DNA from: Amycolatopsis jiangsuensis
GTDB taxonomy: Bacteria; Actinomycetota; Actinomycetes; Mycobacteriales; Pseudonocardiaceae
NCBI RefSeq assembly: GCF_014204865.1
Contig: NZ_JACHMG010000001.1
Span: 1 to 64,000 of the forward strand
Length of the DNA: 64,000 nucleotides
Reading direction: 5' to 3'
Shown: positions 2,507 to 5,024 of the stretch, piece by piece
Position numbering within the stretch: the stretch's first letter is position 1
Layout of the letters: each line of letters begins with the position of its first letter
Notes under the pieces: generated by a model
Seen by the model: the letters and a program-made list of their open reading frames with translations, nothing else
Databases searched by the model: none
Told to the model about the DNA's origin: nothing
Made by a program: the position numbers and the translations under genes

Positions 2507-3772
2507 TCAGTAGCCGAGGGCCTTGCTCACGGCGTCCGTGGACGGCGGCACCGTGGCCTTCGGGCCGACGTGGTTCTCCACCGCGTCGAGGGTCTTGAGG
2601 CCGTCGCCGGTGATCAGGAGCACGGTTTCGGCGTCCGGGTCGAGCTTGCCGGTCTCCACCAGCTTCTTGGCGGTGGCGACGGTGACGCCGCCCGCGGTCT
2701 CGGTGAAGATGCCTTCGGTGCGGGCGAGCAGCCGGATGCCCTCCACGACCTCCTCGTCGGTCACGTCCTCGATCGCGCCACCGGTGCGGTTGACCACGTC
2801 GAGAACGTAGGGGCCGTCGGCCGGGTTGCCGATCGCGAGCGAGCGGGCGATGGTGTCGGGCTTCACCGGCTGGACCACGTCGTGCCCGTTGCGGTAGGCC
2901 GTCGACACCGGGGAGCAGCCGGTGGCCTGGGCACCGAACACCTTGTACGGGCTCGATTCCACCAGACCGAGCTGGCCGAGTTCGCGGAAACCCTTGTCCA
3001 CCTTGGTCAGCTGGGAACCGGAGGCGATGGGCACCACGATCTGTTCCGGCAGGCGCCAGCCGAGCTGTTCGGCGACCTCGAAGCCGAGCGTCTTCGAACC
3101 CTCGGAGTAGTAGGGGCGGACGTTGACGTTGACGAAAGCCCACTTCGGGTGCTCGGCGGCCAGTTCGGTGGCGAGCCGGTTCACGTCGTCGTAGTTGCCG
3201 TCGACGGCGACCAGGTCGCCGTCGTAGACCGCGGTGGTGAGAATCTTGGCGCGTTCGAGGGACTTCGGGATCAGCACGACCGACCGCCAGCCCGCGCGCG
3301 CGGCGGCGGCCGCGGTCGCGTTGGCCAGGTTGCCGGTCGAGGGACACGCGAGGACCTCGAAGCCGAACTCGCGGGCGGCGGCCAGTGCCACGGCGACCAC
3401 ACGGTCCTTGAACGAGTGGGTGGGGTTGCCGGTGTCGTCCTTGACCCACACGCGCTTCAGCCCGAGTGCTTTGGCGAGCCGGTCGGCGCGCACCAGCCGG
3501 GTGCCGCCCGGTTCGGTGTTCGGGGTCTCCTCGACGGTCGAGGGGACGGGAAGGAGTTTCTTGTAACGCCAGATGTTCTTGGGGCCGGACTCGATGTCCT
3601 CGCGGCGCACACGGCCGAAGTCGTAGGCGACCTCGAGCGGCGAGAAGTCCTCGGCGGACACGAACTCCGGGGCGAGCGGCTGCCGGTGTCCCTCTTCCTT
3701 CGACACCAGCTCGACGGCGGGGCCGAGGTCGAGCTTGGTGGAGGTGGAGGTCGTGCCGAGGGATGCGGTCAT
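2507..3772 (-). CDS. thrC: Threonine synthase (PLP-dependent)
   Basis: This 421-residue protein of the tryptophan-synthase-beta PLP fold would convert O-phosphohomoserine to threonine and phosphate. The Schiff-base lysine lies in HSFKDR (Lys122), followed by the phosphate-loop stretch CPSTGNLANA. The start at 3772 is chosen because GGAAAGGA precedes it; an in-frame ATG 17 codons upstream lies inside the riboswitch and is discarded. At about 420 residues it is longer than the roughly 350-residue ThrC of hom-thrC-thrB operons, and no hom or thrB is adjacent, so it may be a second copy. A SAM riboswitch directly precedes it, which is unexpected for a threonine gene. Confidence 0.9.
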   Translation of the reverse strand: MTASLGTTSTSTKLDLGPAVELVSKEEGHRQPLAPEFVSAEDFSPLEVAYDFGRVRREDIESGPKNIWRYKKLLPVPSTVEETPNTEPGGTRLVRADRLAKALGLKRVWVKDDTGNPTHSFKDRVVAVALAAAREFGFEVLACPSTGNLANATAAAAARAGWRSVVLIPKSLERAKILTTAVYDGDLVAVDGNYDDVNRLATELAAEHPKWAFVNVNVRPYYSEGSKTLGFEVAEQLGWRLPEQIVVPIASGSQLTKVDKGFRELGQLGLVESSPYKVFGAQATGCSPVSTAYRNGHDVVQPVKPDTIARSLAIGNPADGPYVLDVVNRTGGAIEDVTDEEVVEGIRLLARTEGIFTETAGGVTVATAKKLVETGKLDPDAETVLLITGDGLKTLDAVENHVGPKATVPPSTDAVSKALGY

Positions 3773-3787
3773 CGCGAGGTTCCTTTC

Positions 3788-3917
3788 CTCATCTGTCCCG
3801 CTGTGGCGGGCCGGAATTGGCACCGTGGTCGTCAGCTACCCCGCGATCGCGGGATGACGGGCTGTACGCCGGTTGCCGGGGCTTCGTCGGGCCGTTCCCT
3901 CTGCCCCTCTGGATGAG
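3788..3917 (-). promoter_or_regulatory. SAM riboswitch (S-box, SAM-I type) upstream of thrC
   Basis: Read on the minus strand, the P1 arms CTCATC and GATGAG enclose the conserved core: AGAGGGG, GAGGGAACGGCCCG, CGAAGCCCCGGCAACC and GGTGCCAATTCCGG, in the order of the SAM-I consensus. The 3' arm of P1 is followed at once by the thrC ribosome-binding site GAAAGGA, with no room for a terminator. Control of translation by P1 formation next to the Shine-Dalgarno sequence is therefore the likely mechanism (inference). Confidence 0.94.
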
Positions 3918-4052
3918 CGGTATTCGGTTGTGGGCGCGCCGCGGTGGGCGCTGCCTGGGCTACACCGTACGACACACCGATCGCCTCGTGCCACGGAGGC
4001 GGGCCAGATCACCGGAGCGGGCGCACCGGTGGCCGGGTGAGAAGATGTCCGG

Positions 4053-5024
4053 GTGACCACCGCACCCGCGCCGCTGCACCTCGTCACCGGCGAGGAAGAA
4101 CTGCTCATCGAACGGGCCGTGCGTGCCGCACTGGACGCGGCACGGGCCGCGGACTCGACGGCCGACCTGACCCGGATGCGCGTGTCCGAACTCACACCGC
4201 CGGAGCTGGCCGAGATGGTGAGCCCTTCGCTTTTCGCTGAGGGCCGGGTGATCGTACTGGAGTCGGCGCAGGACATCTCGCAGGACCTGTCCGATGCCGT
4301 GCTCGGCTATCTGAAGGCGCCGGCCGAAGGCGTGGTGCTCGTGGTCGTGCACAGCGGCGGCGGGCGCAGCAAGGCGGCGAAGGCGCTGCCCGCCGCGCTG
4401 AAAAAGGCGGGCGCGGAGATCACCGAATGCGCCAAGCTCACCAAGCCTGCCGAGCGGGAATCGTTCGTGCGTAACGAGGTTCGCCGCGCGGGCGGCAAGA
4501 TCGACGCGGCCGGGGTGCAGGCCTTGCTCGATTCCGTGGGGTCCGACCTGCGCGAACTGTCCTCGGCGGCGACCCAGCTGGTCGCCGACACCGGCGGCGC
4601 GATCGACGAGCAGGCCGTACGCCGCTACCACACCGGGCGGGCGGACGTGACCGGGTTCGCGGTCGCGGAGAAAGCCGTGGGTGGCGACCGTGCGGCTGCT
4701 CTGGAGTCGCTGCGCTGGGCGATGCAGCTGGGAGTCCCACACGTCCTGGTCGCCGACGCGCTGGCTGACGCGGTCCGCACCATCGCCCGCGTCTCGGCGG
4801 CGGGCCGCGGCAACCCGAACCAGATGGCCGGCGAGCTCGGCATGCCGCCGTGGAAGATCCGCAAGGCGCAAGGCCAGTCCCGAGGCTGGGGCCAAGACGG
4901 CCTTGCCGCCGCGATGCGCGTGGTGGCAAGGCTGAACGCCGAGGTGAAAGGCGCGGCCGCCGACGCGGACTACGCCCTGGAACGAGCGGTGGTCGAGGTA
5001 GTGACCGCGAAAGGCGAACGCTGA
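4053..5024 (+). CDS. holA: DNA polymerase III delta subunit
   Basis: This 323-residue protein begins at GTG with HLVTGEEELLIERAV, the HolA start that holds the degenerate nucleotide-fold loop. It has the family's three-domain length and the helical C-terminal region after residue 210 (FAVAEKAVGGDRAAAL). The delta subunit opens the beta clamp and is part of the clamp-loader complex. The comEA-comEC-holA-rpsT neighbourhood is the standard actinobacterial one, here interrupted by thrC. The gene is divergent from thrC and its riboswitch leader. Confidence 0.92.
   Translation: MTTAPAPLHLVTGEEELLIERAVRAALDAARAADSTADLTRMRVSELTPPELAEMVSPSLFAEGRVIVLESAQDISQDLSDAVLGYLKAPAEGVVLVVVHSGGGRSKAAKALPAALKKAGAEITECAKLTKPAERESFVRNEVRRAGGKIDAAGVQALLDSVGSDLRELSSAATQLVADTGGAIDEQAVRRYHTGRADVTGFAVAEKAVGGDRAAALESLRWAMQLGVPHVLVADALADAVRTIARVSAAGRGNPNQMAGELGMPPWKIRKAQGQSRGWGQDGLAAAMRVVARLNAEVKGAAADADYALERAVVEVVTAKGER

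Follow-up and report, generated by a model that had tools for sequence, protein, structure and literature searches.

A SAM-I riboswitch on an annotated threonine synthase gene of Amycolatopsis probably controls a MetM-type homocysteine synthase

Why would a SAM riboswitch sit directly in front of a gene annotated as threonine synthase? Two answers had been offered by a sequence-only reading of the window (the whole 64-kb stretch of Amycolatopsis DNA analyzed here): either the RNA works as an ON switch, or the enzyme serves the methionine branch, for example through a replacement reaction on O-phosphohomoserine. We conclude that the gene is very probably metM, not thrC, encoding an O-phosphohomoserine-dependent homocysteine synthase, with the S-box as an OFF switch and CysO as the probable sulfur carrier. 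Re-annotation resolves the regulatory paradox: the “threonine synthase” is probably a homocysteine-forming enzyme, and a SAM-OFF switch is ordinary on this gene because the gene most likely encodes a methionine-pathway enzyme (MetM).

Searching the entire window with Rfam covariance models (cmscan) returned a single gathering-level match, the SAM-I family RF00162 (Table 1). The match spans the full model (positions 1-108) and scores 75.8 bits, far above the gathering threshold of 44.4 (E = 5.6e-16). This bears out the earlier recognition of an S-box core next to the Shine-Dalgarno sequence (SD), which the aptamer abuts with zero gap (last aptamer base 3786, SD from 3785); 13 nt separate the aptamer end from the start codon. 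The leader resembles SAM-I riboswitches in this full-length match and in its place before a gene of the methionine pathway, a role that is itself predicted from the protein's relatives. It differs in that the SD follows P1 immediately, the P3 stretch has 40 nt against 11 in the model, and no terminator-like site lies on the gene's strand within 3700-4060. A sigma-70-type scan of the same interval was negative for promoter-like sites on both strands. Barring a promoter inside or downstream of the aptamer, the two are transcribed together with the gene on one RNA; the aptamer is predicted to bind SAM.

Table 1. Positions of the riboswitch, its competing structures and the downstream gene within the window.
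Feature	Positions	Strand	Basis
SAM-I (S-box) aptamer, P1 to P4	3786..3919	-	Rfam RF00162
P1 5' strand CTCATC	3912..3917	-	Rfam alignment and sequence
P1 3' strand GATGAG; last three bases common to the rival hairpin	3788..3793	-	Rfam alignment and sequence
Rival hairpin GAGG/CCTC, incompatible with P1; its 7-nt loop holds the SD	3776..3790	-	Free minimum-energy fold
Shine-Dalgarno AAGGA, 8 nt before ATG (3772)	3781..3785	-	Sequence
metM-type gene (probable), 421 aa	2507..3772	-	PALP fold; Streptomyces MetM-type grouping; replaced pocket residues

The annotation as threonine synthase has an evident source. The NCBIfam model thrC (TIGR00260) accepts the window protein with 281.4 bits against a cut-off of 167.1, hence the name; it also accepts the canonical ThrC of the same genome and is therefore unable to separate the two. 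Among the 120 relatives listed for the window gene, all that are named carry the name threonine synthase, and the best-matching proteins of solved structure are likewise threonine synthases. The protein belongs to the PALP fold family and is 96% identical to its counterpart in Amycolatopsis sulphurea. Its gene had been described as a long thrC lacking an adjoining hom or thrB, and this description holds: it has 421 codons, neither hom nor thrB lies beside it, and its neighbors, one convergent (82 bp between stops) and one divergent, are genes that we take, from place and translation, to be comEC and holA.

The host genome (8.05 Mb, two contigs) has three prominent threonine synthase homologues: the window gene and two others (loci L003 and L002). 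One of these (L003) is a canonical thrC within a separate hom-thrC-thrB cluster, the existence of which had been proposed as a check (hom and thrC are assigned by NCBIfam, and a GHMP kinase gene follows thrC). The other (L002 1369-2625) is of the PRK08197 type (634 bits) and has a long branch in our tree. Compared with canonical actinobacterial ThrC (L003; M. tuberculosis 2d1f), the window protein is likewise of the PALP family and keeps the position of the PLP lysine; it differs in being only ~35% identical to the ThrC of its own genome, in its replaced pocket positions and in lying outside any hom-thrC-thrB cluster. In a tree of 39 proteins, 31 MetM-type rows (picked from 199), the window protein among them, split from seven ThrC rows (six from the same genus, plus T. 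thermophilus) with support of 100/97. The window protein thus groups with the MetM clade, and its genome holds a canonical ThrC in addition.

The nearest system is the MetM/MetO pair of Streptomyces albulus, a homocysteine synthase reportedly described by Hasebe et al. 2024 (Appl Environ Microbiol 90:e01247-24). According to a 2025 paper, MetM is a Streptomyces homocysteine synthase that converts O-phosphohomoserine, S. albulus metM has a SAM riboswitch upstream, and metO is a carrier-protein gene (PMC12172450). We find the gene order S-box, metM-type gene and ThiS-family carrier in three Streptomyces-like genomes. Their metM-type proteins are 62-64% identical to the window protein, and the carriers beside metM have 91-92 residues and a C-terminal diglycine, one of them ending GGC. 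The order recurs in a larger Streptomyces set, the best 80 of 577 relatives of one Streptomyces-like protein, which is 91-97% identical to all 80 (79 are titled Streptomyces and one “Actinobacteria bacterium”). Within these best 80 of 577, a metO-type carrier gene lies downstream of metM in 80/80 and an S-box lies upstream in each of the 20 tested; the window protein is 61-65% identical to the 80 proteins. These loci are equated with the published MetM by their S-box and metO gene order, not by the published sequence. The earlier suggestion of O-phosphohomoserine replacement in the methionine branch thus appears well supported, the window protein grouping with genes in the Streptomyces MetM/MetO order. 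Like S. albulus metM, the window gene is a threonine synthase homologue with an upstream SAM riboswitch; unlike it, it has no metO downstream, its product has the N-terminal Cys4 zinc ribbon replaced, and its genome also has metY-metX and metB.

The pairing of S-box and metM is widespread. When every gene whose product matches the window protein with an E of at most 1e-80 is counted as metM-type, 91 of 121 sampled genomes of the same order carry the gene; 90 of these 91 genes are preceded on the same strand by an S-box, at 7-86 nt from the aligned start, and the remaining one begins at a contig end. This pairing is far beyond chance. A further 31 of the 121 S-boxes found in the order lie elsewhere. 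Canonical ThrC is present in 90/91 of the MetM genomes, the exception being 88% complete. Throughout the phylum sample, 33/55 metM-type genes have an S-box upstream and 22/55 have none that we could find, two of these starting near a contig end; this count leaves out two genomes, the first having a 33% paralogue and the second a gene broken into two pieces. Three of the seven sampled genomes of one genus that lack MetM (L294, L295 and L296) carry an S-box in front of a MetB-like gene, 115-198 nt from its aligned start; the product of this gene is 47-48% identical to the MetB of the window genome. Such a placement would be expected of a riboswitch that goes with the step forming homocysteine. 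One of these three genomes carries further S-boxes. For annotation, the S-box is a ready means of distinguishing MetM from ThrC. In Bacillota, according to another paper, the tandem riboswitches of thrC are T-boxes, not SAM riboswitches (PMC12452182).

The reaction that we predict for the window protein is homocysteine synthesis. The sulfur source of MetM is reportedly a thiocarboxylated carrier protein. MetM would take O-phosphohomoserine from the threonine pathway, and the sulfur of the thiocarboxylated carrier would replace the phosphate, giving homocysteine for methionine and SAM. At low SAM, P1 would be open, the GAGG/CCUC hairpin would show the SD in its loop, and metM would be translated; once SAM is bound, P1 (CUCAUC/GAUGAG) would form against the SD, the display hairpin would be blocked, and translation would drop. 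The carrier within the genus, where metO is unlinked, would probably be CysO from the mec-cysO-cysM cluster.

CysO-CysM-Mec is a system of cysteine synthesis that uses a sulfur-carrier protein. It resembles the arrangement proposed for the window in that a carrier feeds a PALP-fold enzyme, and differs in that the window MetM belongs to the ThrC branch and would act on O-phosphohomoserine. No MetO match lies within 700 nt downstream of the window metM, and the convergent comEC stop follows after 82 bp, so the locus is not a metM-metO operon. metO adjoins metM at 22/29 phylum loci, which represent 29 of 57 genomes with a match, and at 1/90 loci of the order (90 of the 91 genes), three of which have <300 nt of downstream sequence. 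CysO is likely the donor for MetM in this genus, judging from carriers encoded elsewhere: that of the window genome is CysO-like (G000 C1:6894855-6895124), is 56% identical to a Streptomyces-type MetO and is flanked by the presumed Mec (a JAB-domain protein) and the presumed CysM (a PALP enzyme), and the three Streptomyces-like genomes hold, besides the adjacent MetO, a second carrier at 57-61%. If this is true, cysteine synthesis by CysM and homocysteine synthesis by MetM draw on one carrier. It raises the question of CysO, known from cysteine synthesis, as a methionine sulfur source where metO is unlinked; none of the titles or abstract starts of the literature matches listed names CysO as a homocysteine sulfur donor. 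The CysO of the window genome (L009 1489-1767) ends in diglycine plus two residues (GGAR), and a Streptomyces-like MetO (L024 2829-3107) ends GGC. Maturation of the carrier by the neighboring JAB protease may be needed.

That MetM here draws instead on free sulfide, or on a carrier other than CysO, we consider doubtful. The non-adjacency of metO at 89/90 loci of the order and two further ThiS-family matches in the window genome speak for it, as does G237 (470 contigs), the sole MetM genome of the order without a CysO/MetO-like carrier match. Set against this is the co-occurrence of MetM with such carriers, counted present at E 1e-8 or better and without correction for relatedness: 90/91 genomes with MetM against 8/30 without it in the order, and 56/56 against 32/93 in the phylum sample. 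Some of these matches are weak or partial, among them two in the order (G154 and G160), and the correlation is no proof. Joint loss of MetM and carrier was considered as strong evidence and rejected: in the one genus with varying presence (14 genomes, seven with both and seven with neither), it adds little, amounting to one supported independent change.

The zinc ribbon may bear on the same relationship. Its N-terminal CxxC...CxxC pair is intact at 80/80 loci of the Streptomyces set (best 80 of 577) and broken at 12/90 loci of the order, all from the host's own family (L001 and L081-L091); at a 13th locus (L214), the ribbon is cut by a contig end. All four cysteines are lost in the genus and in L087-L089, and one is left in L090 and L091. 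In the window (3647-3703, minus strand; codons 24-42), the four cysteines are replaced and the surrounding sequence is kept. The ribbon was perhaps the MetO-docking part. For the order as a whole, we regard it as an even call that MetM has parted from MetO and uses CysO, with the riboswitch dividing the shared sulfur and the Amycolatopsis branch and its nearest relatives having no ribbon.

The active site, which the sequence-only reading had proposed to compare, separates MetM from ThrC. In T. thermophilus numbering, all 31 MetM-type rows carry T88L, S155N, N157R, R160Y, Q164S, G187A, N188S and A240S, and all seven ThrC rows (six of them from the same genus) keep the ThrC letter at these eight positions. 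K61, S84, N87 and N154 are identical in both groups. Several of the replaced positions (88, 155, 160 and 188), at which the window protein lacks the ThrC residues, presumably bind the substrate or its phosphate; the term “threonine synthase” is absent among the matches listed in our literature search on the threonine synthase pocket.

These residues also bear on a dual role, in which the protein would combine homocysteine synthesis with residual threonine synthase or threonine deaminase activity. According to the 2025 paper, the Microcystis ThrC, 51.6% identical to S. albulus MetM, has threonine synthase and deaminase activity in vitro, and its gene, unlike S. albulus metM, lacks an upstream SAM riboswitch (PMC12172450). 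By analogy with this homologue, side activities of the window protein are possible, and all 31 MetM-type rows retain a lysine at the position of T. thermophilus K61; given the dedicated ThrC and the differences from ThrC at positions 88, 155, 157, 160 and 188 in 31/31 rows, we think a dual role quite improbable.

The direction of switching was approached by folding the leader, in models that include neither SAM nor the pseudoknot. The free minimum-energy fold of the window leader lacks P1 and contains the GAGG/CCUC hairpin (3790-3776), within the loop of which the SD is open with probability 0.98. This hairpin and the 3' strand of P1 (3793-3788) have three bases in common, so the two structures are mutually exclusive. 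With 10, 30 and 50 nt of coding sequence, the probability of an open SD is 0.99, 0.98 and 0.98 in the free fold and 0.73, 0.06 and 0.21 with P1 enforced; enforcing both P1 and P2 gives 0.06. The whole stretch from SD to AUG has an open probability of 0.000 in both states. The nine closest relatives (L081-L089) behave like the window, SD opening falling with P1 at each length, and it also falls in 14/14 usable Streptomyces leaders (from 20, every fourth of the 80 loci). These models favor an ordinary translational OFF switch in the genus and in Streptomyces, and position, folding and pathway logic together suggest a shut-off of the gene by SAM.

The order as a whole shows no uniform sign. Among the 64 of 90 leaders that were usable under our crude SD calling, the free fold is the more open in 33, 41 and 37 and the P1-enforced fold in 31, 23 and 27 (at +10, +30 and +50 nt, respectively). 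At +10 nt, P1 opens the SD by >0.1 in 14 leaders, and 25 go the opposite way. Crude SD calling is perhaps the cause. GATGAG occurs within 45 nt of the start codon, on its upstream side, in 75/90 leaders of the order (followed by CCTC/CCTT in 49/75), in 80/80 loci of the Streptomyces set (followed in all 80) and in 3/29 phylum loci (followed in all three). A pattern written for P1, which gave a result in 157/199 leaders, some misplaced, served for viewing only. This mixed sign, the non-adjacent metO and the lost zinc ribbon are observations that count against the reading as metM under an OFF switch.

A real threonine synthase under an ON switch, which would send O-phosphohomoserine to threonine at high SAM as an RNA counterpart of the SAM-activated plant enzyme, is very improbable: the thrC match, the structural relatives and the 31/64 leaders of the order in which P1 opens the SD at +10 nt are in its favor, and we reject it on the separate canonical ThrC (here and in 90/91 genomes with the gene), the residues replaced in 31/31 rows and the modeled SD hairpin, the S-boxes on MetB-like genes in genomes without MetM and the co-occurrence of the carrier also standing against it. 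Folding the window leader with and without P1 likewise does not support the ON switch of the sequence-only reading, since it favors occlusion of the SD once P1 forms. The parallel drawn there with the plant enzyme is unsupported too. The plant structure 1e5x matches residues 67-396 of the window protein only, and we rejected a plant-like SAM-binding N-terminus since this comparison showed no match of the first 66 residues to the plant N-terminus.

By family match, the window genome has metY and metB, and a metX-like gene beside metY falls below the curated cut-off. With metY-metX and metB present, MetM is likely not the sole route, which weighs against our best explanation. The metY and metB stretches examined gave no Rfam riboswitch match, so of the two routes metM would be the one under SAM control. 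The curated MetX cut-off is reached by 0/121 genomes of the order, the window genome included. We counted as MetX-grade any match with an E under 1e-80, together with one fragmented gene (G179), and weaker matches may include MetX-like enzymes. On this count, 38 genomes have MetM and MetX, 53 MetM alone, 25 MetX alone and five neither; a MetX-grade match is missing from 53/91 genomes with MetM versus 5/30 without it (Fisher p 1e-4, relatedness uncorrected). All 53 have a CysO/MetO-like carrier, and MetM may be their main methionine route, going by MetX as the one homoserine acyltransferase that the search covered. The five genomes with neither are G150, G157, G170, G177 and G194; in G170, a weak MetX-like match lies near an S-box.

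A second S-box occurs in the window genome (L021 1501-1607; G000 C1:6241102-6241208), ~200 nt before an ABC ATPase gene. The best NCBIfam match of this ATPase is MetN, at 190.7 bits and below the cut-off of 499.7. It is likely a methionine transporter gene under the same S-box signal.
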